Both the position numbers and the translations under genes were made by a program. This document shows, one piece after another, positions 30,506 through 52,111 of a stretch of 52,761 nucleotides of DNA (positions are counted from its first letter, which is position 1; every line of letters starts with the position of its first letter). Below the pieces are notes generated by a model. That model worked only from the letters and a program-made list of their open reading frames with translations, had not been told where the DNA came from and did no database searches. The DNA is from Chloroherpetonaceae bacterium. GTDB lineage: Bacteria; Bacteroidota; Chlorobiia; Chlorobiales; Chloroherpetonaceae. The stretch spans positions 1-52,761 of the forward strand of contig JANQGG010000029.1 in assembly GCA_028277445.1 (NCBI GenBank), read 5' to 3'.

Positions 30506-30550
30506 GGTATTCTCCTTAAAATGTGTTGGTAAAGCGGCGCTAAACATTTC

Positions 30551-30578
30551 TGGATTCCGGCTCAAAGGCCGGAATGAC
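30551..30578. repeat. Palindrome upstream of cobN1
   Basis: ATTCCGGC (30554-30561) pairs with GCCGGAAT (30568-30575) around a 6-base loop. It lies 49 bases upstream of the cobN1 start. It is one of several palindromic units in this spacer. Confidence 0.65.
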
Positions 30579-30652
30579 ATGAGACATTTTCAAGTGTTTG
30601 TGTTCACCGTTAATAACGGATACATTTTGAGATTAAACACTTTTCCATTTTA

Positions 30653-31968: not shown

Positions 31969-33980
31969 GCTATACTGTCTTTTACAATGCTTAAAAGTTG
32001 ATCGGATTTTAAATCGTCTATTTTGAAATACTCTGCCCTGAGCGTCGCTGAAATTTTTTGAGCCAGGCCAAAGGTCACGAGGCCCGATTCTTCGGTATCC
32101 ACCACGATATATCGGATTCGTGATTCCTGGGCGATTTTTTGAGCCACGTGATATACTTCGTTAAGCGGCTTCTGGTTGCCCATGGCATGATTAGCTTTGC
32201 CATCCGAAATGATGATCATAATCGGGCGGCCCGAAGGCTCTTTTAAAAGGTAGTTTTTGCAAATGTCGTACCCCTTAGCAAGCCCCATTGAAAACGGGGT
32301 ACGTCCGCCAACGGGTAAATCTTTCAACAGTTTACCGGCTAGTTCCACCGAAGAGGTGATAGGTAGATTTACCGTGGCTTCCTTTTTGCGGAATGAGACC
32401 ATCGCCACCTTATCACGCTTTTGATAGGCATCTAACAAGAGCGACATCACTGCGCCTTTCGAGGCCATCATTCTTCCGCGCGCGCCCATCGAGCCGCTGG
32501 CATCCACCAAAAAAAGAAGCAGATTACCTACGCGTTTTTCGCGGATTTTTTCATGAATGTCGCTTTCTTTTAATGCTACGGCCATGTCATTCGGGTTTTC
32601 GCGATAGCGTTGGTAAGGCGCGGCAGCGCGCAAGGTGGCGTCGAGCGCAATATCATCGTTGGTGCGTTTGGACGTGCTGCGAATGTAACGCCCTTGTTTT
32701 TGCGAGACTTTCGAGCGTGAGCGTCGCCCCGAACCGCGCCGTTTTTTGCGGTCTTTGGGTGTTTCAATTTTTTTGATCTTAAAGGTGGCGCCAATATCAA
32801 AGAGCTCATCCAGCACCTCTTGTTGGTTTTTTTCCGGTGCATTTTCTTCAGGCTTGGTCTCTTCTTCAGGCTCAGGCTGCGTTTGTGGTTGAGGCTCATC
32901 TGACGCATTTTCCTCTGTTGGCGGTTGCTGCTGTGCTTCTTCTTCAGGCTCTTGCGGTTCTTGCTCCGGAAGTTGCTGGTCTAATTGATCCTGATTTTGC
33001 TCCTGTTCGGATTGTTTTTTTTCCTCAGGTTCCGGCTCTTGTTGAGGTTCCTCAGGCGGCGGCGGAGCGGGATCGCGCCGGCGATGTGCAAGGGCATAGA
33101 ACGACACGGTTTTGATGTCTTCCACCGTAACTTCATTTCTGGCGTTATACGCTGCCAGCGCTTTGGCCGCTTGCTCAATCACCAAATCAGCACGGTGGCC
33201 GGCCACATTGTTTTCGCGGCACAACTCTGAAATAAACGAACGCAGATGCAGTGGAATCACCACTTCCGAAAACAGCTTTTTAGCGGTTTCTATCTTTCTT
33301 GCCAGGCGGGTGTTTTCTTCCTCGTATGCTGCTAGAAAGGCTTGTGGGTTTAAATCGTAGGCTTCGCGGCGCAAAATGAGCTCTACACGCAATTCGGGAT
33401 CTTGCTCTGAACTCACTTCCACGCATAAACCAAACCGATCCAGAAGTTGCGGGCGAAGTTCGCCTTCTTCAGGATTCATGGTGCCCACCAGAATAAATTC
33501 GGCCGGGTGGTGGAACGACATGCCTTCGCGCTCCACACGATTTTCGCCGCTAGCCGCTGAATCCAGGACAATGTCTACAATGTGGTCATCCAGCAAGTTG
33601 ACTTCATCGATGTACAAAATCCCCAAATGCGCTTTGGCCAATAGGCCGGGCTGAAATACACGAACCCCGGTTTTTATGGTTTGGTTGAAATCAATTCCAC
33701 CCACCACGCAATCTTCTGTGGCGTTTAATGGTAGGGTAACCACCGAAGGATGATGTTTTTCAAAAATCGGACTTTTTTGGCCGTGAAGCTCTACCAACGG
33801 CTCGGTTTCAACCTCTGGCAAGAGTTCGGTGAGCGCGCGCACCGCCGTAGATTTTGCCGTGCCTTTTTCACCACGGATCACCACGCCGCCAATTTTGGGG
33901 TTAATGGCGTTTAAAATCAAACAAAGTTTAAGCTCACTCTGACCGATAATAGCCGAAAATGGAAACACATGTTTATGCAT
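31965..33980 (-). CDS. chlD: Chelatase subunit D (ChlD-like, AAA+ and VWA)
   Basis: A 671-residue protein. Residues 1-300 are an AAA+ domain close to ChlI, with intact Walker A (GEKGTAKST, 37-45). A Pro/Glu/Gln-rich linker fills about 305-400, then a basic stretch. A C-terminal VWA domain carries MIDAS DASGS at residues 493-497. Subunit D bridges the ATPase ring and the CobN/ChlH subunit. It lies 8 bases after btuB1 and overlaps chlI by 4 bases. The intact nucleotide site is notable, since some ChlD proteins have lost it. Confidence 0.9.
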
Positions 33981-33988: not shown

Positions 33989-35770
33989 TTAAAACTTATA
34001 ATTGAACCCTAACGCCCACTCCAATGGCGGCGCATCATAGCCATCGATGTAGAGATAGGTTTTATCAAACAAATTTTGAATGTCCAGATACATGCGCCCG
34101 AATCCAAGCTGATAATCGGCCCGGTAATTCATAATCCAGTAGGGCGACAGGGATTTTGAATTGTCGGAGCGGCTGTAGGTTCTGGAATCATACTTGAAAT
34201 AAAATGTCATACTCAGCGGTTTGAAAGGCTTTAGAACCACATCGCCGGTAATGCGGTGGAACGGTTTGGACGGCAGCCAATACCCGGTTTCTTCATTTTT
34301 GGCATGAAGGTAGATATATGCCGGTCGGAGTTCAATTTCAGGCGTGATTTGCCAGGATATCGAAGCATCGGCTCCTTTGTAAGTTACCCGTCCGAAGTTT
34401 TGATAGCGTCCCCAGCCTTCATTCTGAGTGACATACGTTATTCGGTTTGCAATGCGGCTGTAAAAACCCGAAAGCGTAGTGCGAAGGTTTTTGAGCAGCT
34501 TGAACTGAACGTTCATGTTCAGGTTGGTAGCTGTTTCCGGCTTCAAGTTTGGATTTGGCTTTGTGGATGAGGTTTCGTTATACCGTTGTTTAAACGTAGG
34601 GGTGTTGTTGGTACGGTTGATTGAGGCATCCACTTGAAGCCAGTCAAAACTTGTGCCGACTTTAAATTCAGGGTTAAATTCGTTGGGAAATTCGCTATAA
34701 AAATTTCCCCGTATCCCGAGTGAAAAATAGAGGGGTAGGGAAGTGATCTGAAACGATTTCAACGCGAACAACCATGAGCGCATTTCCGATTCGGAGTTAA
34801 ACTTTGAACCATTGGCCTCTTCCCACTCTAAACCGCTACCGAGGGTAAAAGCGCCGAATTGTCCCAAAGTGACAGGCATCATCAGCTTTTCGCCAAATCG
34901 CTGAGTTGTAAATGTATTATACAAACTGCGATCGGGATCGCGATTGATCGTTTCGTTCCAATCGAAATAAGTTCGGCTTTCCAGCTGATCGTAATCGATA
35001 CTTAAGAGCGCGGTAGCCATTTGATAGTCTTTCCGGGAATTTGGTGTGCGATACTCTGGCAATCCGCGCATGCCTTTTTCAATCGAGTTATAGCCCCCTG
35101 AAAGCCCAATTGAAAACTCTTCACTGGCATGAAAGATGGTTTTGGCATCCACACGCCACTGGGTTTTATCGTCATTAGTTGTAAAACCATCTTCCGACTC
35201 GTAACCGGCTGTGAGGCCTAACCCTATATTTTGTTGCTGTCCCTGAAGATTAAGCTTTAGTCGGGTATGCTCGAAACGGCCATAGAAACTTTCGGCATTT
35301 CCATTAAAGCGATTGATTTTTTTCGATGTGATCACAATTACGCCACCGCTGGTGTTATCGCCATAAATGGCGCTGCCTTTGTTTTTATAAATTTCAATGC
35401 GCTCAATGGTTTCCAATGAAATCATATCCCATTTTACCGCGCCGGCGCTGGTACTTTTGTCGTTGATAGGACGCCCATCCATGAATACCATAACATTTGA
35501 TGATCCCCTGATTGAAACGAACGTTTCCGAAGCTTTAATGCCGGGCACTCGGTTCAAGACATCATGAATGTTCATGACATTCATGGTTTCAATGTCGGTG
35601 GCCGAAATGATGATCTTATCGCCATTCTCCCGGGCCAGAACAGGTTTTAGGAACCCAGTGGCAAGGATTAACATGGCTGAAGTCAACACGTGTATCGAAA
35701 CAAAGCCATTGTATGTTAGGATCGTTCGCAAATTAATTTTGGTTTTGCATAGGTTTTTAAAACACGTCAT
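33989..35770 (-). CDS. TonB-dependent receptor, BtuB-like (btuB1)
   Basis: A ~593-residue outer-membrane receptor: a signal segment, a plug domain (IRGSSNVMVFMDGRPIND, then RIEIYKNKGSAIYGDNTSGG), and a 22-strand-type barrel ending in ALGFNYKF, with a terminal Phe as in outer-membrane proteins. By position between chelatase genes and corrinoid genes it likely imports a corrinoid or related tetrapyrrole. I start at ATG 35770. This start codon lies inside the arm of a dispersed repeat (35766-35847). A TTG at 35797 is less likely. Ligand not determined. Confidence 0.85.
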   Translation of the reverse strand: MTCFKNLCKTKINLRTILTYNGFVSIHVLTSAMLILATGFLKPVLARENGDKIIISATDIETMNVMNIHDVLNRVPGIKASETFVSIRGSSNVMVFMDGRPINDKSTSAGAVKWDMISLETIERIEIYKNKGSAIYGDNTSGGVIVITSKKINRFNGNAESFYGRFEHTRLKLNLQGQQQNIGLGLTAGYESEDGFTTNDDKTQWRVDAKTIFHASEEFSIGLSGGYNSIEKGMRGLPEYRTPNSRKDYQMATALLSIDYDQLESRTYFDWNETINRDPDRSLYNTFTTQRFGEKLMMPVTLGQFGAFTLGSGLEWEEANGSKFNSESEMRSWLFALKSFQITSLPLYFSLGIRGNFYSEFPNEFNPEFKVGTSFDWLQVDASINRTNNTPTFKQRYNETSSTKPNPNLKPETATNLNMNVQFKLLKNLRTTLSGFYSRIANRITYVTQNEGWGRYQNFGRVTYKGADASISWQITPEIELRPAYIYLHAKNEETGYWLPSKPFHRITGDVVLKPFKPLSMTFYFKYDSRTYSRSDNSKSLSPYWIMNYRADYQLGFGRMYLDIQNLFDKTYLYIDGYDAPPLEWALGFNYKF

Positions 35771-35847
35771 TGCGAGCTTCTGAAAGAAGCGTGGCAATCC
35801 AGTTCAAAATACATGGACTGCTTCGTCGCTTTGCTTCTCGCAGTGAC
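35766..35847. repeat. Dispersed repeat overlapping the btuB1 start
   Basis: An 82-base unit with inverted ends CGTCATTGCGAG and CTCGCAGTGAC. The CAT at 35768-35770 is the start codon of btuB1 on the other strand, so the repeat supplies the first codon and the upstream bases of that gene. It resembles the unit at 30653. Confidence 0.7.
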
Positions 35848-35875
35848 ATAAAAAGAACTAATAAATTACTGCTTA

Positions 35876-35964: not shown

Positions 35965-36016
35965 CTTAAAGAATGAATGTTTCATGCTTGTTAGTTTTTC
36001 CCTGATCATAGATGCT

Positions 36017-39000
36017 TCAAACAGTTAAATCCTCGATTTTGCCTTCGGTTTCCAAATACTCTTCACGCAGTTTTTGATGCATCTCGTCGCTGGCATTCCA
36101 CATATCGCGGTTTATGGCTTCCAAAAGTTTATCTAAGATATTTTGATGAGCGTATGGATTAACTTCGCGCATCCACGCTTTCATTTCCTGATCCAAAGCG
36201 TATTTGTTGGCCACGCGTTCGTACATCCAATCATCTACCACTTCGGCGGTGGCATCCCATCCTAGGATGACATCCATCATTTTGGAAATATCCCCGGCGC
36301 CTTTATAGCCGTGTCGTTTCAGGCCATCGAGCCATTTTGGATTGAGCAATCGCGAACGGAATATGCGCTTGGCTTCTTCCTCGGTGGTGCGCATCTGAAC
36401 GCGTTTGGGATCGGAGCTATCGCCCATTAATGCGAACGGTTTCTGGCCGCGCACCACCTTAGAGGCTACTATTAAGCCGCCATAATAGTTGTAGTAGTCG
36501 GTGCAAGAGAACATATCGTACTCGCGAGAGTCTTCGTTTTTTACGGTTACATCCATACGCGAAAGCACCGTTTTAAAGGTCTTGGGCTTTTGCTTACCGT
36601 AACTGCCTTTGCCATATGCATGGGCAGAGTAGCGGATGTAGTTGGCGGCCAGATCGTCCTGCGTTTTCCAGTTTTTGGATTCAATCAGTTCTTCCACGCC
36701 TGCGCCATACGTGCCGGGTGGGCAACCGAATACGCGGAAAGTGGCTTCGCGCATGGCTTCGTCTTCAGTTAAACCATCTTTTTTATACGCTTCAAAATCA
36801 GCCCAAACATTGCGGCGTAGCATGTTAATTTCCGGCGGCTCATTGAGCGCCGAAACCATTTGAACCGCTTCATCAATTCGCTGAACCAACAAAGGGAAGG
36901 CGTCGCGGAAAAAACCTGAAATGCGAGGCATAACATCCAAGCGCGGCCATTTCAGTTCGTTAGATGGAATAATTTCTAATCCTTTAACATACCCGCTGCC
37001 TTCCTGCCAAACCGGCCGCACCCCCATTAAGTAGAGGATTTCGGCCAGGTCGTCGCCTTTGGAGCGCATGGTAGCGCCACCGTATAAAATAATGCCAATG
37101 CTTTCGGGGTATTTGCCCGATTCATCCAGGTAGCGTTGAACTAAAGCATCGCCCAGCCTTTGTCCCACTTCCCACGCACCGGGACTGGGGATTTTGTTGG
37201 GATCTACCGAGTAAAAATTGCGCCCGGTTGGCAGAATGTCGGCTTGCCCGCGGGTCGGCGCGCCTGAAGGTCCGGGACTGACAAACCGGCCCGAAAAAGC
37301 TTTCAAGCTGGCATCGGTTTCATCAGTAACCTTTTGAATATTGGGTACCAGTTCCTTTGCAATAAAACTGAGCACACGCTCTACCGGTGGGGTAATATCT
37401 TTGAATTGGTTTTGGGCATGTTGAATAGCTTCAACAGAAAAGTCACTCTCCCTTAAATGTGCCATAATCTCTAAGGCCCGTTCATGCGCCTGGCGTATGA
37501 GTTCGCCGCCTGATTTTTGCCCCTCATTAAACAGGGGTTTGCCTTTGTGTTCCAAAAGCACATCATAGTCGTATCCCCACGATTCCAGCAATGCTTCGCG
37601 AAGAGATGGAACTGACCCATTACTTATCCGAGTCATTTGTACCAACAGCTCGCTTAAGCGATCGCCTTCCGGGGATTGGCCTAAAATGTGAAGCCCATCG
37701 CTGATCATGGTATCAGACACATCATCCAGGTAAGCATGGAGTTTTTCCAGGAATGAGTCAAAATTGCCCAGAGCCTCTTCTTTGGTCATTTGAAGGTCTT
37801 TATCCAAATCGGCTTCCTGGGCTGCTTCCCATAGCATCGGGCGCAAGACTTCAAGCTTGCCGGGATCGCTGGATTTGGCTTCCTGGTAATCGCGAAGCAG
37901 GTTATCGGCTTTGGCCAGTTCTTCATACAAATCGGCATTGGTAAACACTGGCGTCAGGTGATCTACAATGCAGCAATATGAGCGGCGTTTGGCCTGCGTG
38001 CCTTCACTCGGATCGTTTATGATGTAAGGATACACATTCGGCAGGTCCAGGATAGAAAGATCCGGGTAGCATTCTTGGCTTAATCCCAGGGCTTTGCCCG
38101 GCAGCCACTCGAGCGAGCCGTGTTTGCCCACATGCATCACGGCATCGGCTTTGAATACATCGCGCACATAGTGGTAATACGCCAAATAATGGTGCGGCGG
38201 TGGAAGAATGGGATCGTGCAACAGTTGATCCATGCGCTCAATTTTTCCGCGCGAAGGTTGAATGGTGATGTATATGTTGCCGTTCATGAGTCCGGGGAAC
38301 AACAGTTTATCTTCATGCACAAACAAATCGCCGGGCATTTCGCCCCAGTCTTTCACCATGCTAGTTTTTACAGAACCGGGCAAGGCATCGTGCCAGGGCT
38401 GATACTGCGAGCGTTCGGCAGTGGCAACGGCGCGTTCAGCCAGTTTATCAGGGGGTAGCCAGCGGCGGTCGCAAGTCATTCTTTCCAGCAATTCATGGGC
38501 CAGGTCGTCGCCTTTCTCGTAAGTTTTTTCAACCGTATATCCTTCCTGTTTGAGTTGGATTAACATTTGATTGACGCTTTCAAAGCTATCCAATCCCACG
38601 GCGCAGCCAATCCGGTCGTTTCGTGGCGGGTTGTGATGGAACACAATGGCCAGTCGTTTTTCAGCATTGGGCTTGTGGCGCAACAGCGCCCATTTTTTCG
38701 CCAAAGCGACAACTTTTTCCATCCGATCATCAATCGGCATGTACTTGGTGAGCATGGCCCCGGTAAAGGCATCAATCTCGCGTTCTTCGCGTGAGCCCAC
38801 AGGAACCGTGATAAGCGCGCCATCAAACTCAGGCTGCGCTGCCGCGTAGCTTACTTCCATGGTACTCATGCCCTGCACGCTGTTTTTCCAAACTTCATAA
38901 GGCTGATTGGTGATCATGGCCTGCAAAACCGGGACATCCAGGCTTGGATACACATCCACGTAATCCGGGCAATTGAGCGTGAGTGAAAAAATCTGCGGGT

Positions 39001-39790
39001 TCAAAAGCACATCAATTCGCGATGAGCCATCCGGGTTTTTGAAAAACTGATCGCTTACAACATCAGCGCCTTTGTTGCCGCGCAGAGCATCTTTATAGCG
39101 GATATGAAAAATGCCAAGCGCGTTGGCGCCTTGCTTTTCAATTTCGCGGATCAGGGCATCCATGTGCGCCAGGTTGTTATTCACCCAATAGGTTTGGTTA
39201 AACCATAAGCCAATGGTGGGCTTTTGGGGATCGTAATGTGTTTGGAGATACCCCTCAACATCCGAAAAATCGGTGAAGTCGGGGTGATAAATCCCTTCGT
39301 GGGGTAATGGTTTGGGCGGATCTGCATCAAGCGATTCCTGGCAAATAATATTATGAAGGTAACAAAGGAGATGATAGTAATTCCAACTCCCGCCAAAACT
39401 CAGGTATTTATTGATTGTATCACCCTCGGATTTACCAAAGGTATCGGAATATTTTTGAGCCAGCGCAATGGCTTCTTCATCCCCGCCACCGGTTTGAATG
39501 TGGATGATGGGCGTGCATAAATGCTCATCGTGGCGTTTTTCCAAGGCGTCTATTAGCGCATCAAAGCCGGGAAACGAATTTTTCCCGCCATGCAAGGAAA
39601 TAATGACCATATCCGATGAGAGCGCTTTGCGGGCAAATTCGCGCTGCCTGGCCTCATCAAACAGTTGGGTTTGAGTGGATGCTACAACCTCAATTTGGTT
39701 TCCATCGGCGGTGTAGAGTTCAATGGCCTGACTCAGCGAGGGGATTTCCATACCCGTGGCGCTGTAGTAGCATAATTTATAAGCGGTCAT
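36017..39790 (-). CDS. cobN: Cobaltochelatase CobN, canonical paralogue (cobN2)
   Basis: A 1257-residue CobN with the full family architecture. The active-site segment is HVGKHGSLEWLPGK, His557 being the second His that cobN1 has replaced with Glu. AKRRSYCCIVDHLTP and PYAHQNILDKLLEAI follow. CobN is the ATP-dependent large subunit that inserts cobalt into hydrogenobyrinate diamide in the aerobic route, with an AAA+ motor (here chlI/chlD). In this genome cobalt is already inserted by CbiX, so its job may be different. It overlaps the radical SAM gene upstream by 4 bases (ATGA), so both are made together. HmuS of the Porphyromonas haem-uptake operon shows CobN homologues can act in tetrapyrrole uptake loci; here that is only a possibility. 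Confidence 0.88.
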   Translation of the reverse strand: MTAYKLCYYSATGMEIPSLSQAIELYTADGNQIEVVASTQTQLFDEARQREFARKALSSDMVIISLHGGKNSFPGFDALIDALEKRHDEHLCTPIIHIQTGGGDEEAIALAQKYSDTFGKSEGDTINKYLSFGGSWNYYHLLCYLHNIICQESLDADPPKPLPHEGIYHPDFTDFSDVEGYLQTHYDPQKPTIGLWFNQTYWVNNNLAHMDALIREIEKQGANALGIFHIRYKDALRGNKGADVVSDQFFKNPDGSSRIDVLLNPQIFSLTLNCPDYVDVYPSLDVPVLQAMITNQPYEVWKNSVQGMSTMEVSYAAAQPEFDGALITVPVGSREEREIDAFTGAMLTKYMPIDDRMEKVVALAKKWALLRHKPNAEKRLAIVFHHNPPRNDRIGCAVGLDSFESVNQMLIQLKQEGYTVEKTYEKGDDLAHELLERMTCDRRWLPPDKLAERAVATAERSQYQPWHDALPGSVKTSMVKDWGEMPGDLFVHEDKLLFPGLMNGNIYITIQPSRGKIERMDQLLHDPILPPPHHYLAYYHYVRDVFKADAVMHVGKHGSLEWLPGKALGLSQECYPDLSILDLPNVYPYIINDPSEGTQAKRRSYCCIVDHLTPVFTNADLYEELAKADNLLRDYQEAKSSDPGKLEVLRPMLWEAAQEADLDKDLQMTKEEALGNFDSFLEKLHAYLDDVSDTMISDGLHILGQSPEGDRLSELLVQMTRISNGSVPSLREALLESWGYDYDVLLEHKGKPLFNEGQKSGGELIRQAHERALEIMAHLRESDFSVEAIQHAQNQFKDITPPVERVLSFIAKELVPNIQKVTDETDASLKAFSGRFVSPGPSGAPTRGQADILPTGRNFYSVDPNKIPSPGAWEVGQRLGDALVQRYLDESGKYPESIGIILYGGATMRSKGDDLAEILYLMGVRPVWQEGSGYVKGLEIIPSNELKWPRLDVMPRISGFFRDAFPLLVQRIDEAVQMVSALNEPPEINMLRRNVWADFEAYKKDGLTEDEAMREATFRVFGCPPGTYGAGVEELIESKNWKTQDDLAANYIRYSAHAYGKGSYGKQKPKTFKTVLSRMDVTVKNEDSREYDMFSCTDYYNYYGGLIVASKVVRGQKPFALMGDSSDPKRVQMRTTEEEAKRIFRSRLLNPKWLDGLKRHGYKGAGDISKMMDVILGWDATAEVVDDWMYERVANKYALDQEMKAWMREVNPYAHQNILDKLLEAINRDMWNASDEMHQKLREEYLETEGKIEDLTV

Positions 39791-40827
39791 AATGCAATTC
39801 CTTCCGATAAAGTCAATTGTTGAGCGATACTACTTAGCAAGTGGCACTCCAATTGCCGGGCAGCATGAGGATTGTAATACGTTCTTGAGGGACACTTGCC
39901 CGGACAATTTTGTTCTAAACGGCAACCCCGGCAATGTTCAGTATCAGATTGAAAATCCGAAAGCTTCATCAGGTTTGTGTTGTCTGGCGCCGAAAGCGTG
40001 CCCAGCGAAAAGTTCGGATCGCCATAGGTTTGCGTGCAGGGATAGAGATCACCGCTTGGGCCAACTGCTAAGCTTTCACCGCTGCAAGCCTGGCAAAATG
40101 GTTTTGAGTGGGCAGGGCCTTGGGCATTTTTTACCTGCTGAAGTTCGCGAAGCTTTATCGGGGTTTGACGCCGGGCATTGACAAATTGCAATCGCGACAA
40201 AAGTGCAGGGATGGCATCAGATATTTGTTGTTTGGTTGGATAGTTCAAGTTGAACTGATGAGCAGCCCCTTTTTGAACGAGCATATCCAGCCCGATGCCA
40301 GTAGCATTTGGAAATGCGCCTAAAATCATGGGCAAATCCTGAATCGAAAGAATAGAGGCTTCGGAAATTACGGTGGTTAGATTGAACGCCACATCGTACT
40401 CCCGAAGCAACGCCATGCCCTGAAAGGTTTTTTGGCTCTGCCCCCGCAAATGTTTTTGCACCTCCGGTCCGCCATCGAGGCTTACACCCACCAATACCCG
40501 ATACGTTTTAAACGCTTCTGCCAGCTTTGGCGTAAGCAGCGTGGCATTGGTTTGTAGAGAAACGTATGCATTGGGATAATGCACGCGGATGTATGGTAGT
40601 AACCAAAGCAAGGTATCGGGTACGAGGGTCGGTTCACCGCCGGTGAGCTGAACATGAAAGGGATGGTTACCCTCACTACAAAGCTCTAGCGCTTTCTGGG
40701 CGGTTTTGCGGCTCATGTTGCCTTGCGCGCCTCTGGCGTGATGTTCATAACAATACTTGCACGATAAGTTGCACGCATCGGTAAGCATCAGCATCAGGTT
40801 TTTGGGTGTTATGCGTGAAGGGTTCAT
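39787..40827 (-). CDS. Radical SAM/SPASM-domain protein
   Basis: A 346-residue radical SAM enzyme. The N-terminal TIM-barrel motif CNLSCKYC puts the cluster ligands at Cys19, Cys23 and Cys26, with LTGGEPTL for SAM. The C-terminal SPASM part has eight cysteines (245, 248, 264, 299, 302, 308, 312, 328), enough for two auxiliary 4Fe-4S clusters. SPASM proteins mostly modify peptides or proteins. Overlaps of 4 bases with both neighbours (TIM-barrel gene and cobN2) leave no room for a precursor peptide in the coding run, so a small molecule or corrinoid substrate is possible. The reaction is unknown. Confidence 0.85.
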   Translation of the reverse strand: MNPSRITPKNLMLMLTDACNLSCKYCYEHHARGAQGNMSRKTAQKALELCSEGNHPFHVQLTGGEPTLVPDTLLWLLPYIRVHYPNAYVSLQTNATLLTPKLAEAFKTYRVLVGVSLDGGPEVQKHLRGQSQKTFQGMALLREYDVAFNLTTVISEASILSIQDLPMILGAFPNATGIGLDMLVQKGAAHQFNLNYPTKQQISDAIPALLSRLQFVNARRQTPIKLRELQQVKNAQGPAHSKPFCQACSGESLAVGPSGDLYPCTQTYGDPNFSLGTLSAPDNTNLMKLSDFQSDTEHCRGCRLEQNCPGKCPSRTYYNPHAARQLECHLLSSIAQQLTLSEGIAL

Positions 40828-41825
40828 CGAAGCGCCTCCTCTTGTTTAAATACAGAGGCCATTGCCTGTTTTTGCGACCTGATTTTGTGTTGCCACTCTT
40901 CAAGCGAGCGATAGGCAAACTCAAACACCACATGCTCCGGGTGAATGAGATCAAACAAGCCTGAAATGGCCTGATCTTCAAAAGCATTGTGCTGATCGAT
41001 CCGGCGAACATGCCTGGCAGCCACCGTGAGCTTTTCCCAAAAATCCAGGTTGCTCGCAAAGGTGTGTTTCTTGGTATCTTGAACATACTTACCCGAAAGG
41101 CTTTTGGTTAAATGCACCGCTTTGATGTGCTTTCTTTGATCTCCCAAAGCTTCAACTTGGTTCAGCAAATACCCAATGCCTTCTTGTTCCGACAGAAGCG
41201 CTTGGTTTTTATTTAGAATATGCCCGGTATCGAGCACAATGCCGGTTTTTGGATGCTTGGTTCGACTAAGCAGGTAATCAATTTCCCAGGCCTCGTCTAA
41301 CCGAAAATTACCCGGCCACCACAAGTTTTCATACAATACCCAGTTTTTATAGGGTGAGCGTTCCATTACCGTATTGATGACATCCACCGATAGATCCATC
41401 GTGGCCTTAATATCCCAAGGTGGGTTCCAGTTATAAACATATTCCAGTTCATAATGCACCGGGTGGAACACCACGTATGGCGCTTGAAACATGGCGGCCA
41501 GTTCCAATTGCTGCTGGTAATAGGCTATAATGGCCTCTTTATCCGAGCCGCCATAAAATTTTTCCAGGTTGTCTTGTGAGCCAAAAATAGAGTTTAGCTT
41601 TACCTTGTCGTTGCGCCAGATGGGGTCTAAAATGATAAAAAACCGCAGATGCAAACCTTTAACTAAATCCGTTGGAATAGACTTATAGGGATAGTCCATC
41701 CCAACCGGGTAAAGCTCAAAGCCATCAAACTCAAAGTTTGAGAGTAGGTCTTGCGCCGTATCCCAATTTTGGTTGATGATCTCCAGATCGGCGTGGTGCG
41801 TGCTAATGTTGAGTAAAATATTCAT
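40824..41825 (-). CDS. Xylose-isomerase/EndoIV-like TIM-barrel protein
   Basis: A 333-residue TIM barrel of the sugar-phosphate-isomerase / xylose-isomerase-like superfamily. Candidate metal ligands in the usual order are His121 (FHPVH), Glu166 (LYENLWW), Asp199 and His202 (VLDTGH), His238 (AVHLTKS) and Glu302 (VFEFAYRS). Members isomerise or epimerise sugars, act as endonucleases, or have specialised small-molecule roles. Substrate unknown here. It overlaps the downstream radical SAM gene by 4 bases and follows the nitrilase by 3. It lies in the block between cbiZ and cobN2, so it probably acts on a corrinoid-linked substrate (inference). Confidence 0.8.
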   Translation of the reverse strand: MNILLNISTHHADLEIINQNWDTAQDLLSNFEFDGFELYPVGMDYPYKSIPTDLVKGLHLRFFIILDPIWRNDKVKLNSIFGSQDNLEKFYGGSDKEAIIAYYQQQLELAAMFQAPYVVFHPVHYELEYVYNWNPPWDIKATMDLSVDVINTVMERSPYKNWVLYENLWWPGNFRLDEAWEIDYLLSRTKHPKTGIVLDTGHILNKNQALLSEQEGIGYLLNQVEALGDQRKHIKAVHLTKSLSGKYVQDTKKHTFASNLDFWEKLTVAARHVRRIDQHNAFEDQAISGLFDLIHPEHVVFEFAYRSLEEWQHKIRSQKQAMASVFKQEEALR

Positions 41826-41828
41826 CGG

Positions 41829-43406
41829 CTAGCTGAGTCTATTGGTTTTGGCATGTGCAACCGGATGATGGTTTCTGGCAACATCAGCGCTTTTTGAATC
41901 GGTTTGCAAAAGCAATTCAAAATCGTAGCGTTCGTGAAAACGCTTTTTACGTGACAATTCGGTTGAAGTAGACGCTGTGCAGGGGAGATCGGCTTCGGAG
42001 TGATATTCCTTCCAAGGGGCGTGTCCAATAGGCGATTCGGCAACAAACGCCAGATTTTCACCAGCCACGGCCACAATAACCTGCTCGATGGTTTTAGCAT
42101 CCAATGCAATATGCAATGATTCATCCAATCGGGTAGCGGGGCATACAATCAAGTCGCAACCAAGTTTTGCTGAGGCCATGGCAAATTCCGGGTGAATCAG
42201 TTCATGGGTAAAAGCCAGGGTAAGGCGTGCATTTTCTATATCAATCCATAAGGGCGTTTGATTCTCTATATGTTCAACACCTTGGTATGATATGGTTTGC
42301 CCCGAAGCATCGATAAACACAATTTTCAGGTCGCCTTCTAAGGAAGTCATACCAAAACAAAGATTGAGTTGGTGCGATTTGGCCAATACACCCATAGCAT
42401 TCAAATCCAAAGAAGCATCAAGCTTATACATTGGCATTAAGAGTAATCGTGGATTTTGGGTAGGTTTGAGCTTTTCAATGCTTGCTGTAATGGCAGGAAT
42501 GCTAAACTGAGGTAACGATGCTTGGGTAAAGGCCACAATATCAAGCGTGCCGGGTTTGGGCAGATTGTAATACGAGGTTAAGTCGTTGGCATAACGCATA
42601 TCCAGATACATATCGCCGTAGTGGTGCGGCTGGCGCGTTGCAAGCCAATTAGGTTCATTTTTTTTGATCCGGCCATTTTCGAGTGGCAATTTGGCGTAAA
42701 AGATGGCAGAGTCCCGGCTTTTTTCAGAAAGCAGGATTTCGCCGGTTGGAGAAAACACACAGGTTGAGGCCTCATGGCACGACATCGTAAGGTCTTCACC
42801 TCCTCGATTGGCTGCGGCTATAAACATATTGTTTTCAATAGCGCGTGCTTTCCAAACCAACTTGGGATCAAGGCTTAAAGCCGGCCAGTTGGAAGGCACA
42901 ATCAGCAGGTCAGCGCCTTTTAATGCCGTTGCGCGCGGAATAAGACCAAAATAAGAATCCGAACAGATCATGAGGCCAATTGTACCCCACGGTGTTGAAA
43001 AGGTGTTGTTTTGCATGGCTTCTCCGGGGCACGCCCACCGGGTTTCGGAAGTGATTTTTCGGTATAAACACAGCGTTTCACCGGATGGCGAAATGGCAAT
43101 GGCAGAGTTGTAAAAAATGGGAGAAGTGTCGTCGCGTTCGGCAAATCCCACAATTATATACACACCGCAAGTTTTAGCCAGGTCTTTGATGGCCAATATC
43201 GTTTCACCTTCTTTGGATTCGGTATAGGCTGAAATATCCTGGCGCGAACTGAAGCTGTAACCAGATAACGAAAGCTCCGGGGCAATAATGATATCAGCCC
43301 CCGATTCAGCGGCTTTTTGAGCATGGCTGAGCAGGGATTGACGGTTATGCGTCAAGTCTTTATGCTTAACGCTCAGATGCAGAAATCCTAGTGTTAATCT
43401 GTCCAT
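41829..43406 (-). CDS. Tandem carbon-nitrogen hydrolase (nitrilase), one domain dead
   Basis: A 525-residue protein with two nitrilase-like domains. The first (residues 1-245) has the catalytic triad: Glu44 (IAPELSLSGY), Lys117 (YRKITSE) and Cys148 (MICSDSYF). It is likely to hydrolyse an amide or nitrile. The second (290-480) keeps the fold but not the chemistry: the Glu position is Met326 (LMPMYKL) and the Cys position is Thr400 (LAFTHELIHPEF). The dead domain may be structural or regulatory. It overlaps cbiZ by 13 bases and lies 3 bases before the TIM-barrel gene. Amide hydrolysis on corrinoid side chains is a testable idea, not shown. Confidence 0.83.
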   Translation of the reverse strand: MDRLTLGFLHLSVKHKDLTHNRQSLLSHAQKAAESGADIIIAPELSLSGYSFSSRQDISAYTESKEGETILAIKDLAKTCGVYIIVGFAERDDTSPIFYNSAIAISPSGETLCLYRKITSETRWACPGEAMQNNTFSTPWGTIGLMICSDSYFGLIPRATALKGADLLIVPSNWPALSLDPKLVWKARAIENNMFIAAANRGGEDLTMSCHEASTCVFSPTGEILLSEKSRDSAIFYAKLPLENGRIKKNEPNWLATRQPHHYGDMYLDMRYANDLTSYYNLPKPGTLDIVAFTQASLPQFSIPAITASIEKLKPTQNPRLLLMPMYKLDASLDLNAMGVLAKSHQLNLCFGMTSLEGDLKIVFIDASGQTISYQGVEHIENQTPLWIDIENARLTLAFTHELIHPEFAMASAKLGCDLIVCPATRLDESLHIALDAKTIEQVIVAVAGENLAFVAESPIGHAPWKEYHSEADLPCTASTSTELSRKKRFHERYDFELLLQTDSKSADVARNHHPVAHAKTNRLS

Positions 43407-44569
43407 TTTTCAGTGTATCCAAGTGCACATGCGTTGTAAATAAATTCTAAAAACTCGCGATTTTCCAGACTGGGCGTTGATTCTGCCAAGCGTTCATAGT
43501 ATGCCCCAATCCTGTTGTTTTTGTCAGAAATCGCTGCACAGAGAAGCGCTGCTTGCCGGGTAAAAATTTCTTTCATGCAAGAGCGAGGTAAAATGCCCCA
43601 AACCATTTTATCGCGCAGATGAACCAATGCGCAGGCCGCAGCTACAGCCATAGGATCGCGATTGAATCCTTCAAAATTTTTAAGAAATACTTCTTTCGTG
43701 GCCTCAGGTAAGTTTTTGGCAATGCCGTCTTTGAGTGATTCAGCGCTCGCTCCGAACCGCTCCAGATGCCTTTTAATAGAGCGTTGGTTTTCCGGAGTCA
43801 GCGAATTTTGCAGGGCCAGTGTTTTACGAATCGCGCGGGAAACGCTTAACCCGATAAGCTCGCCCAATTTGGAATGTTTGCCAGAACTGGTCAGTGGCGG
43901 TTGGCCGGTTAATCGGCAGGCCAGGGCAATTTGATCGGTGCCAGTACCGGTAGCCAAGCCATCAGAATAGCGTGAATTCACGCCCAGTTCCTGCAATACT
44001 GCGGTTTTGGCTTCGGTTGCCGTAATAATGGCGCGAACCATAGCGCCTTTCGTAACTTCCTGACTGATCAATACCATCGTATTGATAGTGCCATGCGGCT
44101 CCCGGCCATTGGCGACCAAAGGTTCGTAAGCGCCTGCTTGTTCATACATCGAGGCCGGATCGCCGGCTCTTCCGGCATTGGTTTCAACGCCGCCGGTTGC
44201 AATGGCCACCACTTCCAAATCGCGAAATTGCTCGGTTTCTATGCAGGCATAATTCATGTTGGCTGCCGTGCCCAGCGAAACCGTGCGTTCAGGCAACGCG
44301 TGCGTTTTGCACAACGATTCTAAATAAAGCTCGGGCGTTTTGGCGATGGATTTTAGCGACGCACGATGGTGCGAGGCCGGTTCACACGACTGATGATTGA
44401 ACATACATTCGATATCGTCGTGCAGCCCGCCATTGGCCCGGCAGGTCGAGATCACCCGGTAAGGTGAGTTAAACGTGACGATCACGATTTTTTCGTTGCG
44501 ATGCACCTCGGCATCCCCAAATGTTCCTAAATGCATTTCACTGTTATCTTTTTTAAGCCAAATCATCAT
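43394..44569 (-). CDS. cbiZ: Adenosylcobinamide amidohydrolase CbiZ, extended
   Basis: A 391-residue CbiZ. Motifs seen are TNAGRAGD at 130-137, GTINTMVLIS from 160, TATEAKTAVL from 183, ATGTGTD at 206-212 and GKHSKLGELIG at 230-240. CbiZ cleaves the aminopropanol arm from adenosylcobinamide (or pseudo-corrinoids), giving adenosylcobyrate for rebuilding, a salvage and remodelling step. Beyond residue 250 there is an extra ~140-residue helical region, longer than the simple family domain. It sits between btuF2 and the nitrilase, directly after import genes, consistent with remodelling of imported corrinoid. Confidence 0.88.
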   Translation of the reverse strand: MMIWLKKDNSEMHLGTFGDAEVHRNEKIVIVTFNSPYRVISTCRANGGLHDDIECMFNHQSCEPASHHRASLKSIAKTPELYLESLCKTHALPERTVSLGTAANMNYACIETEQFRDLEVVAIATGGVETNAGRAGDPASMYEQAGAYEPLVANGREPHGTINTMVLISQEVTKGAMVRAIITATEAKTAVLQELGVNSRYSDGLATGTGTDQIALACRLTGQPPLTSSGKHSKLGELIGLSVSRAIRKTLALQNSLTPENQRSIKRHLERFGASAESLKDGIAKNLPEATKEVFLKNFEGFNRDPMAVAAACALVHLRDKMVWGILPRSCMKEIFTRQAALLCAAISDKNNRIGAYYERLAESTPSLENREFLEFIYNACALGYTEKWTD

Positions 44570-44572: not shown

Positions 44573-45757
44573 CTATTTCAATTTTTGGTAATAGACCAGT
44601 TGATGGTTGGGTAATAGTTCGGGATGAAAAATTTTGATTAAATCAGCTAAAATGATATGCGGCTGGGCCATGCCGGTTTCCCAAAACCGGTTTCGCCCAT
44701 TGTGAAAAGTAGCTGCGTTATTATTGTAAACCCGTCCGGTTTTAACGGCTTTAAAAAATCTATAGCGTGTGTCTTGACCAATAAGATCAGATATGCGGGT
44801 GGTTTCCCATTGCGGATTGACCCAAAAATCGGCATTCATACCTATATTAATAGCAATTTCCAGACTGATGACATTTTCTTCGTACTGGCTTTTGGGTTCG
44901 AGGATGTAATTGGCGCCGGCATCCAACAAAAATTGCACGAACCATGCGCTTGAGCCGTGAGTGGTCCATGCGCCTTTCCGGTTATGCCCGACAATGACGC
45001 TGGGTTTGATGGGCGCATCAGCAACTGATTTTTGATAATTTTCATATTGGACTTTAATGCTATCGAAATACGCAGAGGCGCGCGTCTGCTCATGAAAAAA
45101 TTCCCCTAAAAATTTTATCCATTCCAGTGTGCCCAAGGGATGGGCTTCAAGATGGGCACAGATTAAACCAGGTTTAATACCCATTTGCTGGATTTTATCC
45201 TGCATATCAAATGCACCACCTGAGGCATAAATGAAGGCCATATCGGGCTTCGTATTCACTAAGGTTTCCATGTTGATACTTCGGCTGGTGCCTATGGCGG
45301 CAAGTTTGCCCTCATCCAACATGGTATGTATATGCTCATTTCCAACCCGCATTTTCCCGGATACTCCGACAAGGCCATCAAAATGGCCAAGGATATCAAT
45401 AAGAGTGACATGAAAACCACTGGCACAGGTGTAAGTACCAATCGGCGTACGCACAAGTTCATCGTAAGAAATACCATTCGGGACCGGGCTTTGTTTTGGA
45501 ACCAGTAAATAGGTATACCATAAGCCGCGTTGCCGGCCTACCGGCTTTACAATTTTAATTAACGTGCAGCCCCGGTTTAAATGCGTGATTGTAAATCGCT
45601 CTGCGTATTCCGGCTGAATTGTTTTACCGGATAAAGGCGCAAATGGCGCTGCATAAATGTTTGGGATAACAGGACTGAAAGAAAGCCCAAACACAAAACA
45701 GGACAACAGCAACGCCTTAAATTGCACCAAAATATTTTGTCGAGACAGGTGTTTCAA
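44573..45757 (-). CDS. Periplasmic corrinoid-binding protein (btuF2)
   Basis: A 394-residue class III (TroA/BtuF-like) periplasmic binding protein. A hydrophobic export signal spans residues ~10-36 and there is no lipobox Cys, so it is probably soluble in the periplasm. It shares its C-terminal layout with btuF1 (an AGANYILEPK segment, YYQKLK at the end versus FYRKLK), so the two are paralogues. It delivers corrinoid from the outer-membrane receptor to BtuCD. The gene lies 3 bases before cbiZ and 265 bases after btuB2. Substrate is inferred from the neighbourhood. Confidence 0.82.
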   Translation of the reverse strand: MKHLSRQNILVQFKALLLSCFVFGLSFSPVIPNIYAAPFAPLSGKTIQPEYAERFTITHLNRGCTLIKIVKPVGRQRGLWYTYLLVPKQSPVPNGISYDELVRTPIGTYTCASGFHVTLIDILGHFDGLVGVSGKMRVGNEHIHTMLDEGKLAAIGTSRSINMETLVNTKPDMAFIYASGGAFDMQDKIQQMGIKPGLICAHLEAHPLGTLEWIKFLGEFFHEQTRASAYFDSIKVQYENYQKSVADAPIKPSVIVGHNRKGAWTTHGSSAWFVQFLLDAGANYILEPKSQYEENVISLEIAINIGMNADFWVNPQWETTRISDLIGQDTRYRFFKAVKTGRVYNNNAATFHNGRNRFWETGMAQPHIILADLIKIFHPELLPNHQLVYYQKLK

Positions 45758-46022: not shown

Positions 46023-48419
46023 TTAGAAATTCACGGCATATCTTACACCCACCGAGCGACCTGGCATGTTGTAGCCGTCTTTTTCGGTATAGTTTTCATC
46101 TAACATATTTTTTGAAAACACTGAAATCTGGCTTGAATGATTGATTTTCATAGTAACATTGGCATCAAAAACCAGCGCGGCCGGATGTGTTAGCTCAGTA
46201 TCGGTAAGCGTTGGACGGGCTTTGAGATAGGAACTGAACCAGTTACGCTCATAACGTTCGCCCATGTAACGGGCCGTGATCCGTGCACTTATAAAATTGT
46301 AGTCATCGTATTCAATGCCAAACGTGCCTCGGTTTTTGCGAACATATTGGAGATTGCTGGTTTGGTTATCCTCGGTTTCCTCGGCGACCAACTGATGTGT
46401 GAAATTGGCAAACAAGCGCAATGAGTAATCAAAGTCTTGAAGTGCGCCGAAATCGTAGGAGAGTTCAAATTCCAACCCTTGCAATTCGGCCTCATCCACA
46501 TTTATGAAGGTTTTATAATCGGATGTATCGGTACCGGAGATTTCGGTTCTACCAACCTCTTCAATGAAATTATCCCAAGCTGTGTTGAAATAGGTGACAT
46601 CGGCTCGGAATCCGCTGTTGGCATTGGAGTAAGTTAAACCCACATCGAATGTTACGCTGGATTGTGGATCAAGATCACTGTTTCCACGGGTTTCAACCCC
46701 AGAGTCACTCACATATTCACCTGCTTTTTGATAAGGATTTGGTGCTACAAACGCCCGGCCAGCGCTGGCATGCAATTTTAAATCTGGAATAAACCGATAT
46801 TGCACGCTAACACTGGGATTAAAGTTTGAATAAGTTTCAGTGTCGCTATCTAAAGCCGAATTATCGAAAAACGGCGTTTCTTTTAATTTGTAGCTGGTTA
46901 AATCCAGCCGACCGCCAACATTACCAATCAACCGGTTGTTTAAAAATGAGAGGGCTACATCTGTAAAAATCCCTAAAGTTGAAAGACGTTGGTTGGGACG
47001 GTAAGGCGCTTTTTCGGTGCTGTCGCTCGAATAGCTGTGTGCTTCCACATCGGCCAGGTTGTAATCCAGACCGGCGGTAATGCGCTGATCACCCAAAGCC
47101 AAAATATCTTGCAATTGGAAGCCTAACCATTGAGTTTGGCGGGTACTGGAGAAATAATCAACATCAATCGCTCTTTTATCTTTAGAATAGGACACCCTAA
47201 TAGAATCAACCTGATCATCAAAATATTTGTTTTCTTCCAATGCCCAGTAGGGTTTGAACTTAAAAGTATGATTTCCCATAACCCCATCCAGGGTTACATC
47301 AATGGTTTGGCGATCCACATTTTTTTGCCCATGTCCATAAACCGCCCATACCGAACCCGGTGTGCGCACACCATTGGCTTGATAGACTTCGCCACGCGCT
47401 TCTAATCGGAGATTTTCTTTAAGGTCGTAACCAAAGCGCAGGCTTGCCGAGTTTGTTGAGTAGCTGGTATTGCGCATGGTTTCAACATCTTGCACCAGCA
47501 ATTCCGGTTTCGGATCCGAAATCAAGGTGTTGCTGCCAATCTTGTAATCGTCGTTTTGATTATAGGTGCGGCCACCCAGATCAAAATCAAGCTGATCGGT
47601 CAATGAACCACCTGTATTAAATTTGCCATCCAGGGTATTAAAGCTGCTATAGCTGAACTCGGCATTTCCACTGATTTTTCCTTTTGATCGTTTGGTGATA
47701 AAGTTAATGGTACCGCCCATAGCCTGTGAGCCATACAATGCAGAACTTGGGCCTTTAATGACTTCCACACGCTCAATAGTGCTCATATCAATAGTGGCCA
47801 GGTTGGTAACACCCGCCGGACGCCCATCGATCAGGTAAGTGACATATTGATCCAAACCTGAAAATTTCGGTGTAAATCCACGAACCGACACCCCAGCCAA
47901 TACACCCGGGTATTCAATCAGATCCACGCCGGAGGTTTTCTTTAAGAGTTCGGTGGCATCTTTTGGCGCCAGCGCCCGAATATCTTCGGAGGTGACGATT
48001 TCAATTTTTCGAGGAATATCTTTTAATTTGCTTTGCGCGCGTGAGGCTTGCACCACAATTTCATCAGTCATGCGGTTTGTTGAATAAAGTTCCACGTTTA
48101 TAACGGTTCTCTCTCCGATATGCTTTATTTCGCGGCGATACCCCAAATAAGTTATCTCCAGCAATTTTGCCCCCGTTGGTATTGAAAGGCTGTATTCGCC
48201 TTTTTCGTTGGTGATTGTACCAAGCGAGGTGTCCTGTATTCGAACAGTGGCGCCAACAAGTGGCTCACTGGTTGTGGCGCTTTTCACTACGCCTGAAAGT
48301 ACCCTTTCTTGCGCTTTGGCGCCAAAAGGGATGAGCAAGAAGCATAAACCCAATATTATCAATCCAATCCTATCGGGTTTAAGTTTAAATAAATACGTTT
48401 GTTTTGTGGTTTGCTTCAC
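46023..48419 (-). CDS. btuB: TonB-dependent corrinoid receptor (btuB2)
   Basis: A 798-residue outer-membrane receptor. It has a signal peptide (to about residue 36, ending AKA), a carboxypeptidase-regulatory-like domain (LSGVVKSATTSEPLVGATV), a plug (SVRGFTPKF, then RVEVIKGPSSALYGSQAMGG), and a C-terminal barrel ending in AVNF. The start is GTG at 48419 with AAGGAG eight bases upstream. With riboswitch-preceded btuF1-C-D just upstream it is the likely cobalamin receptor. It is larger than btuB1, which lacks the N-terminal domain. Confidence 0.9.
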   Translation of the reverse strand: MKQTTKQTYLFKLKPDRIGLIILGLCFLLIPFGAKAQERVLSGVVKSATTSEPLVGATVRIQDTSLGTITNEKGEYSLSIPTGAKLLEITYLGYRREIKHIGERTVINVELYSTNRMTDEIVVQASRAQSKLKDIPRKIEIVTSEDIRALAPKDATELLKKTSGVDLIEYPGVLAGVSVRGFTPKFSGLDQYVTYLIDGRPAGVTNLATIDMSTIERVEVIKGPSSALYGSQAMGGTINFITKRSKGKISGNAEFSYSSFNTLDGKFNTGGSLTDQLDFDLGGRTYNQNDDYKIGSNTLISDPKPELLVQDVETMRNTSYSTNSASLRFGYDLKENLRLEARGEVYQANGVRTPGSVWAVYGHGQKNVDRQTIDVTLDGVMGNHTFKFKPYWALEENKYFDDQVDSIRVSYSKDKRAIDVDYFSSTRQTQWLGFQLQDILALGDQRITAGLDYNLADVEAHSYSSDSTEKAPYRPNQRLSTLGIFTDVALSFLNNRLIGNVGGRLDLTSYKLKETPFFDNSALDSDTETYSNFNPSVSVQYRFIPDLKLHASAGRAFVAPNPYQKAGEYVSDSGVETRGNSDLDPQSSVTFDVGLTYSNANSGFRADVTYFNTAWDNFIEEVGRTEISGTDTSDYKTFINVDEAELQGLEFELSYDFGALQDFDYSLRLFANFTHQLVAEETEDNQTSNLQYVRKNRGTFGIEYDDYNFISARITARYMGERYERNWFSSYLKARPTLTDTELTHPAALVFDANVTMKINHSSQISVFSKNMLDENYTEKDGYNMPGRSVGVRYAVNF

Positions 48420-48574: not shown

Positions 48575-49660
48575 CTAGTCTGAAATTTTATGATTGGCTT
48601 GAATCGCCTCAATAAGCTCGGTAATACTTAGAAAATTTGTTTCGTTTTGTTCCGAGTCTGAATAATACCGCCAGGCATCCACGCCTAAATCGTTATTGAT
48701 TTCTACACGTGGAAGAATGGCTGTATCTTTAAGAACTTTAAATCCCATCCGCTCAAGAGCACGTTTGGTCCAAAGCGCTAAAGCGCCTTCGCCGATAAGG
48801 CCGAAAGTCCCTTTGGTGTGATAATGAATTTGAAAGGATCCTGTATTGCGGTCAAATTTGAACCCATGCCTGGCAAAGGCTTCTTCAAACCTGCCATTCA
48901 AAATTAGTTCTTCGGGCATGCCCGAAATAAGATCGCTTTTGTATTTTTTCTCATTTGATTTTATCACTTGCATCAGCCAGATTTTATCGGCGGCTTGCAA
49001 GGCCAAATCCAGCTCATGGGTTGACATCAAAATACTTTTGCATTTTTCATGCGTCAGTTTTCTTAAGAGCCTTATGATTTCTATTCGATTGGGTAAATCC
49101 AGATGGGCGGTAGGTTCATCCAGCAAAATAATCGGGGTATCCTGAGCAAGCGCTCTGGCAATCATGACCTTTTGGCGTTCGCCGTCGCTTAAATCGCTGA
49201 TGTGTGCGTTTAGAAAAGGCATGGTTCCGGTAATTTCAATGGCTTCCCGGACGATTTTTTCATCTTCCGCCGAAAGTTTGCCCATCCATCCGGTATAGGG
49301 TGAGCGGCCCAATGCCACCAGAGCATACACCGAAAGATTGCCTATGGAAATCCGATCAGTGAGAACAACGCTTAGGTTAAGCGCAATATCTTTTGCCGAC
49401 AATTTTGTGAGTGGCTTACCAAGCAATTCAACCCGACCTGAAAGCGGCGATTGAATGCCCGACATGGTTCGCATTAGGGTGGATTTGCCCGAACCGTTCG
49501 GTCCGAGTAGGCATACAAGTTCTCCCCGGTTTAAACTCAGGTTTAAATCCTTTGCAATTTCACTGATTCGGCCGTTGGTATTTTGACCAAAAAGCATTGC
49601 GTTTTTTTTATGACGATAGCCAATCGTGAGGTCTTTTATGTTTAAAACATCTGTTATCAT
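48575..49660 (-). CDS. btuD: Corrinoid ABC importer ATPase
   Basis: A 361-residue ABC ATPase: Walker A GPNGSGKST at 53-61, signature LSDGERQKVMIARAL, Walker B IILLDEPTAHLD. About 100 extra residues follow the ATPase core (including a GTFGLIGEGALALWTKRAL segment), more than in classical BtuD. It is coupled to btuC by a 4-base overlap. A 155-base spacer without a gene separates it from btuB2 downstream. Assignment to corrinoid rather than iron chelate import rests on the riboswitch and cluster. Confidence 0.87.
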   Translation of the reverse strand: MITDVLNIKDLTIGYRHKKNAMLFGQNTNGRISEIAKDLNLSLNRGELVCLLGPNGSGKSTLMRTMSGIQSPLSGRVELLGKPLTKLSAKDIALNLSVVLTDRISIGNLSVYALVALGRSPYTGWMGKLSAEDEKIVREAIEITGTMPFLNAHISDLSDGERQKVMIARALAQDTPIILLDEPTAHLDLPNRIEIIRLLRKLTHEKCKSILMSTHELDLALQAADKIWLMQVIKSNEKKYKSDLISGMPEELILNGRFEEAFARHGFKFDRNTGSFQIHYHTKGTFGLIGEGALALWTKRALERMGFKVLKDTAILPRVEINNDLGVDAWRYYSDSEQNETNFLSITELIEAIQANHKISD

Positions 49661-52067: not shown

Positions 52068-52111
52068 CTTAAATGCGCTTTTCACCTGAAGCTTTAATTG
52101 AAAATATGTCT

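Follow-up and report, generated by a model that had tools for sequence, protein, structure and literature searches.

The window analysed here is a contig of 52,761 bases (C11) from the 3.42 Mb genome of a Chloroherpetonaceae bacterium, and the system in question is a block of five genes encoding the adenosylcobinamide amidohydrolase CbiZ (43394..44569), a tandem nitrilase-superfamily protein (41829..43406), a TIM-barrel protein (40824..41825), a radical SAM/SPASM protein (rSAM, 39787..40827) and CobN2, a cobaltochelatase-type large subunit (36017..39790). An open reading frame (ORF) check placed all five on the minus strand, where the other genes and the riboswitch located below also lie, with successive spacings of -13 (cbiZ/nitrilase), +3 (nitrilase/TIM), -4 (TIM/rSAM) and -4 (rSAM/cobN2). 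An earlier note on this DNA had described five consecutive same-strand genes that overlap by 4-13 bases or lie 3 apart, downstream of riboswitch-led import genes, and both descriptions are reproduced: a cobalamin riboswitch (52100..52302; Rfam RF00174, 98.4 bits) leads the operon, followed by SBP1-btuC-btuD-TBDT-SBP2, which encode two substrate-binding proteins (SBPs), BtuCD-like transporter subunits and a TonB-dependent receptor (TBDT), and then by cbiZ-nitrilase-TIM-rSAM-cobN2. The cluster runs on beyond 36017 with TBDT2-chlD-chlI-cobN1, and further downstream lie cbiMNQO and an anaerobic cbi operon (13150-26338), the cbi set of the window including CbiX, cbiD, cbiG, cbiJ and cbiC. The TIM barrel is very probably the cobamide phosphodiesterase CbiR, and across genomes the nitrilase, the rSAM and the cobaltochelatase are near-strictly associated with CbiZ/CbiR remodelling, in a block that is composed of two modules of one regulon.

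Co-occurrence and Modular Organization

Among 98 Chlorobiia genomes, CbiR is found in 8, and orthologs of the rSAM (E<1e-77) are present in exactly these 8, separated from the next match by an E-value gap of >50 orders of magnitude. The tandem nitrilase occurs in the 8 CbiR genomes and in G041, where the contig end cuts the gene, and CbiZ in the same 9 genomes. CobN2 was detected in 7 of the 8 (the contig of G049 ends just after the rSAM gene) and as a fragment in G015, and its divergent paralog CobN1 in the same 7 genomes and in G015. CbiD, a marker of de novo synthesis, is encoded by 17 of the 98 genomes, including all 8 block carriers; of the 9 CbiD-positive genomes without the block, 8 lack any CobN2 ortholog that reaches E<=1e-300, and the remaining one, G015, has the fragment only. 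In G015, a fragmented assembly of 92% completeness, cobN2 and cobN1 lie on a short contig (C76; locus L087), and no CbiZ, CbiR or rSAM ortholog was detected elsewhere in this fragmented assembly. Under independence, which ignores the relatedness of the genomes, two identical sets of 8 would be expected with p ~6e-12 and the inclusion of 8 within 17 with p ~1.5e-7. The carriers are spread among many non-carriers and come from two families and four genera, and 394 sampled Bacteroidota genomes, which include the same carriers, contain no further carriers of the rSAM, CbiR or a full-length nitrilase. The order nit-TIM-rSAM-cobN2 recurs in several Chlorobiaceae genomes, hence the arrangement is more than chance. 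Co-occurrence of the five genes across genomes, cbiZ included, had been put forward in the earlier note as a check on its proposal, and in the 98 Chlorobiia it is near-strict.

The nearest relative compared, G087, which belongs to the same family and has a complete genome of 3.29 Mb, carries the genes at two loci, namely SBP-cbiZ-nit-cbiR, followed by cbiM and other cbi genes (L015), and SBP1-btuC-btuD-TBDT-SBP2-rSAM-cobN2-TBDT2-chlD-chlI-cobN1 (L073/L074). Both are led by cobalamin riboswitches (14256-14456 in L015 and 2069-2276 in L074), and as the split loci each have their own, the block of the window can be understood as the place where a remodelling module and a chelatase module meet, both controlled in the same way. 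The nitrilase is assigned to the remodelling module because it is kept with cbiZ and cbiR in G087, and the rSAM to the chelatase module because it is kept there with cobN2; in G049 and G027, de novo cbi genes are placed between nit and cbiR. The single unit envisaged earlier thus gives way to two modules, which adjoin each other in the window as well as in several relatives and are split in G087, while the corrinoid role that had been suggested is strengthened by the B12 riboswitches on both modules, the import genes, the cbi genes and the near-strict co-occurrence.

The Remodelling Module

Mok et al. (2020; PMC7733943) describe CbiR of Akkermansia as a cobamide phosphodiesterase, whose cleavage of the phosphoribosyl bond yields cobinamide phosphate (Cbi-P) and alpha-ribazole; they name Chlorobi among the CbiR carriers and report cbiZ as well in nearly 20% of the taxa with CbiR. 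Family, residues, fold and context together point to this identity for the TIM barrel, and homology and context suggest phosphodiesterase activity. Pfam returns AP_endonuc_2 only (PF01261, 2.3e-13; 50.9 bits against a cut-off of 31.1), on which ground an MNIO/DUF692 identity was rejected. An AlphaFold model (pLDDT 88.5) has IolE and endonuclease IV as its best Foldseek matches, with ketose epimerases also found, and PDB sequence searches gave no solved CbiR relative. In an alignment of 12 homologs, down to 23% identity, the residues E37, H59, H121, E166, D199, H202, H238, D277, H279 and E302 are invariant and of the metal-ligand type. A contig search with the single TIM protein as query gave no match, and an alignment-based search led to Chlorobi, Ferrimonas and Shewanella. 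The homologs of the latter two sit in cobU/cobC/cobS/cbiB operons. In Ferrimonas the gene is flanked by cobS and cbiB and in Shewanella it adjoins cobS and cobO, the neighbours in these genera being cobS, cbiB, cobU, cobO and btuCD. Thus, the TIM barrel is very probably CbiR rather than an unknown amidase-like enzyme, and with CbiZ alongside it the block would be an operon for cobamide remodelling, which is a type of system already known. The earlier statement that no described pathway uses this set is accordingly too strong for cbiZ and the TIM barrel, as CbiR remodelling has been described.

CbiZ itself matches PF01955 (2.7e-61) over residues 33-247, with a domain score of 207.3 bits against a curated cut-off of 27. 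Its C-terminal extension of ~140 amino acids (residues ~250-391) has no Pfam match, and a PDB sequence search with it returned no meaningful match. The tandem nitrilase matches CN_hydrolase (PF00795, 1.7e-39) in its N-terminal half only, and the closest solved structures likewise span only this half. In an alignment of 8 orthologs, Glu44, Lys117, Glu121 and Cys148 of the N-terminal half are invariant, and the C-terminal half is a degenerate nitrilase-like domain from which the catalytic residues are absent. The protein is probably an accessory amidohydrolase that acts on the released corrinoid or on fragments thereof; the removal of side-chain amides, suggested earlier, is a possible role of the nitrilase, as is metal exchange for CobN2.

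The Chelatase Module

CobN2 belongs to the CobN family, as it matches CobN-Mg_chel with E=0 and scores 980 bits with TIGR02257 against a cut-off of 822. Its top solved relative is CobN (7c6o, 741 bits), followed by ChlH and then by HmuS, and the HxGxHG motif is kept as HVG(K/T)HG in 7/7 sequences. ATPase partners are encoded nearby (30931-33980), namely a ChlD/ChlID-type subunit with AAA and VWA domains (31965..33980), which scores 779.6 bits with the putative cobaltochelatase model TIGR02442 against a cut-off of 779.45, and a ChlI-type AAA subunit (30931..31968), which stays under the cut-offs of TIGR02442 and TIGR02030 and has AAA_lid_2 and Mg_chelatase matches. The earlier note had reported a canonical CobN, and this stands with the TIGR02257 result, but CobN2 is not a lone subunit, as its own ChlD and ChlI and the divergent CobN1 (26744..30580; PF02514) follow. 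CobN1 scores 747 bits with TIGR02257, under the cut-off of 822, and lacks HxGxHG: it has HFGTEG or HFGTSG in its place, and where the other CobN/BchH proteins of the comparison have an invariant His, 6/6 aligned orthologs have Glu or Ser. Its invariant cysteines comprise C386, C1081, C1083 and a C522-x4-C527-x4-C532 insertion and may mark a metal or Fe-S site.

CobN2 also has cysteines of its own. Six of them are invariant in 7 orthologs. Cys 396, 440, 606 and 1023 are unique to CobN2 and occur in none of the 15 reference CobN/BchH proteins, Cys 1096 is also found in CobN1, and Cys 607 is not fully unique; the other reference groups have 0 or 1 such lineage-specific Cys columns. This comparison was devised after the alignment had been viewed and is therefore a lead rather than a test. 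Several of the CobN2 lineage cysteines adjoin conserved chelatase motifs.

Other identities were considered for the large subunits. The genome encodes three BchH-type Mg-chelatase H paralogs elsewhere, in keeping with its place among the green sulfur bacteria. Their scores lie far over the BchH cut-off and those of CobN1 and CobN2 do not, so that a BchH/S/T identity was rejected for both. HmuS is a CobN-like protein that is able to dechelate haem (PMC12583661), and for CobN2 an HmuS-like function was rejected as both motif and score misfit: CobN2 lacks the LSLDHxxEFMGG motif of HmuS and has FSCTDYYNYYGG at this position, and CobN1 has LDCGCYAS..GG.

The rSAM matches PF04055 (2.2e-17), and the CxxxCxxC cysteines C19, C23 and C26 as well as the SPASM cysteines C245, C264, C299, C302, C308, C312 and C328 are invariant in 8 orthologs. 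Its nearest folds are anSME, ChlB and CteB. The Foldseek match to anSME spans the full length and was obtained with a model whose confidence is only moderate (pLDDT 66.5), and by its nearest relatives it is of the SPASM peptide/protein-maturase type. A tblastn search of a plasmid collection returned only generic SPASM and nitrilase relatives. A cluster for a ribosomally synthesized and post-translationally modified peptide around the rSAM was considered and rejected, since the rSAM, cbiR and cobN2 genes overlap and leave no room between them for a precursor gene, and in G087 only the rSAM gene lies between SBP2 and cobN2; this check was limited to the rSAM-cbiR-cobN2 junctions, short ORFs elsewhere not being surveyed.

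Import Genes and Other Features of the Island

SBP1 (50814..52115) is a BtuF-like substrate-binding protein (PF01497, 5.4e-20), followed by a BtuC-like permease (49657..50805; FecCD PF01032, 9.2e-73), for which BtuC (PRK03784) is the top NCBIfam model, under its cut-off, and by a BtuD-like ATPase (48575..49660; ABC_tran, 4.2e-29), for which the corrinoid ABC ATPase model PRK09536 is second-best, also under its cut-off. The TonB-dependent receptor (46023..48419; PF00593/PF07715) is a probable corrinoid/tetrapyrrole receptor that scores 234 bits with the haemin and 119 bits with the B12 receptor model of NCBIfam, both under cut-off, and SBP2 (44573..45757; PF01497, 1.1e-19) completes the import genes ahead of cbiZ. 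The second TonB-dependent receptor, TBDT2 (33989..35797; Plug PF07715, 2.6e-18), has a doubtful TTG start and is kept beside cobN2 in relatives. By eye, the gaps 35798-36016 and 30581-30930, which flank TBDT2-chlD-chlI, hold similar short repeat-like stretches of the GCAATGAC/TCGCGAGC type, and the predicted TTG start of TBDT2 falls inside one of these. Within the cbi operon, a gene for an NAD-dependent epimerase/dehydratase-like protein (22762-23676) is conserved in G087, where its counterpart (~50% identity) occupies the corresponding position.

Proposed Function and Alternative Explanations

We propose, with a probability of roughly 0.6, that the island combines corrinoid import and nucleotide-loop remodelling with a late-type cobaltochelatase that acts on imported corrinoids. 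Cobamides would be imported via the TonB receptor, the SBPs and BtuCD and would then lose their nucleotide loop. Hydrolysis of the phosphoribosyl bond by CbiR would yield cobinamide phosphate and an alpha-riboside, hydrolysis of the aminopropanol amide by CbiZ would yield cobyric acid, and the cell could then rebuild its preferred cobamide; the nitrilase would contribute to this module. The set rSAM-CobN2-TBDT2-ChlD-ChlI-CobN1 would form a late-type cobaltochelatase coupled to uptake, which would most likely insert or re-insert cobalt into imported corrinoids that are damaged or lack a metal, since CbiX already serves de novo synthesis as an early chelatase. The SPASM rSAM would probably modify a protein partner, with CobN2 or CobN1 as first candidates, or else the corrinoid itself. 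The data show the gene content, the near-strict co-occurrence, the modularity, the common riboswitch type and the families to which CbiZ and CobN2 belong, whereas the reaction steps and the parts played by the nitrilase, the rSAM and the chelatase are inferred from these.

Several points weigh against this proposal. CbiR and CbiZ could suffice for remodelling, so that the nitrilase, the rSAM and the chelatase are not required by the model, and the CbiD-positive genomes without the block show that de novo producers can dispense with it. G015, with cobN2 and cobN1 and without detected CbiZ, CbiR and rSAM, implies that the modules may not be strictly coupled, and haem-receptor models outscore BtuB for the receptor at 46023..48419. 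To our knowledge, an activity is not known for any of the Chlorobi members.

It is conceivable that plain remodelling or salvage by CbiZ and CbiR merely has as its neighbour a module for the uptake of tetrapyrroles or metals with which it has no relation (rSAM-cobN2-TBDT2-chlID-cobN1), such as an HmuS-like dechelatase system for haem or another metallo-tetrapyrrole. The separate loci in G087, the best scores of the TonB receptor with haemin receptor models, the precedent of haem dechelation by the CobN-like HmuS (PMC12583661) and the seeming presence of the chelatase part only in G015 would all fit, yet a cobalamin riboswitch is found at both G087 loci, both modules occur in the same genomes, and CobN2 is over the CobN equivalog cut-off, has HmuS as its weakest match among the near full-length solved class I chelatases and differs from it at the LSLDHxxEFMGG position; we regard an unrelated module as unlikely. 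Less likely still is that CobN2-ChlD-ChlI is an ordinary late-insertion cobaltochelatase of de novo synthesis, with the other genes as accessories for regulation or salvage. That CobN2 passes TIGR02257 and ChlD barely reaches TIGR02442 would agree with such a role, but with CbiX and the anaerobic set cbiD, cbiG, cbiJ and cbiC in the window cobalt enters early, and a late chelatase is unneeded for de novo synthesis when CbiX is present. Moreover, the block is absent from 9 of the 17 CbiD-positive genomes, with CobN2 undetected at E<=1e-300 in 8 of these, and haloarchaeal CobN is likewise found beside an early-cobalt pathway, where salvage has been suggested (PMC8305020).

Similarly improbable is a chance co-transfer, in which the rSAM and the nitrilase have travelled with the island and serve to produce or modify a lower ligand or a peptide that has nothing to do with corrin handling. 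The peptide/protein-maturase type of the rSAM speaks for it, as does the mobile appearance of the island, which is patchy across genera and whose counterpart genes in Ca. Chlorobium antarcticum lie in low-coverage regions; however, the rSAM gene adjoins cobN2, with an overlap in the window, even in the split island of G087, where no extra gene lies among SBP2, rSAM and cobN2, and rSAM and cobN2 are kept together by 8/8 carriers as far as the contigs reach (that of G049 ends before cobN2). A more far-reaching possibility is that the chelatase module is a machine for metal exchange in corrins, such that CobN2, perhaps with a redox-active CobN1, would insert, remove or replace the central metal of imported corrinoids, the rSAM would install a cysteine-based modification in the cysteine-rich cavity of CobN2/CobN1 and the nitrilase would strip side-chain amides to produce chelatase substrates. 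This joint scheme, which we hold to be a long shot, leans on otherwise unexplained features, namely the 4-6 CobN2 lineage cysteines, the C-x4-C-x4-C insertion of CobN1 and its lost superfamily His, and we know of no enzymatic removal of cobalt from corrin.

Comparison with Known Systems

Cobamide remodelling by CbiZ and CbiR is already known, and what is new here is the nitrilase, the rSAM and the late-type cobaltochelatase as near-constant partners. The operon links two families of cobamide-remodelling enzymes, and the near-strict association ties remodelling to these three partners in early-cobalt organisms, which makes it testable why such organisms retain CobN, a question that arises in haloarchaea as well. 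The island thus extends a known recycling pathway, and new chemistry may be hidden in the nitrilase, rSAM and chelatase partners.

Like CbiZ salvage in archaea and Rhodobacter sphaeroides, the system has a CbiZ domain far over the cut-off beside B12 import genes, but its CbiZ has a C-terminal extension and is paired with CbiR and the nitrilase. With the Akkermansia CbiR system it shares an AP_endonuc_2 TIM barrel whose His/Asp/Glu metal ligands are conserved and whose gene lies amid those for cobamide metabolism and transport; in the island this enzyme is joined, by adjacency or within one regulon, to cbiZ, the tandem nitrilase, the rSAM and a class I chelatase, and the searched main text of PMC7733943 does not mention the nitrilase, rSAM or chelatase partners. 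For a related Chlorobium cluster, the consulted passages of PMC8620254 propose cobinamide/pseudocobalamin salvage, and they speculate on cobalt insertion into acquired cobalamin in Chlorobaculum tepidum and Ca. Chlorobium antarcticum. The latter, which is our relative L032, has in its low-coverage regions, according to these passages, cbi genes, cbiZ, TonB/ABC import, cobN and bchH/D/I in likeness to the island, and the searched passages make no mention of a TIM barrel (CbiR), a nitrilase, an rSAM or class-wide co-occurrence (PMC8620254).

HmuS, from the same phylum, resembles CobN2 in that it, too, is a large subunit of the CobN type encoded in an uptake operon with a TonB link (PMC12583661), whereas CobN2 lacks LSLDHxxEFMGG, is partnered by ChlI/ChlD and is controlled by a B12 riboswitch. 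In haloarchaea, CobN is retained beside an early-cobalt pathway, with salvage suggested without proof, and like CobNST and the haloarchaeal CobN-ChlID systems the island has a CobN-like subunit with ChlD/ChlI partners beside such a pathway (PMC8305020). In contrast to these, the chelatase described here is linked to TonB uptake and is accompanied by an rSAM, a second, divergent CobN and CobN2-specific cysteines.

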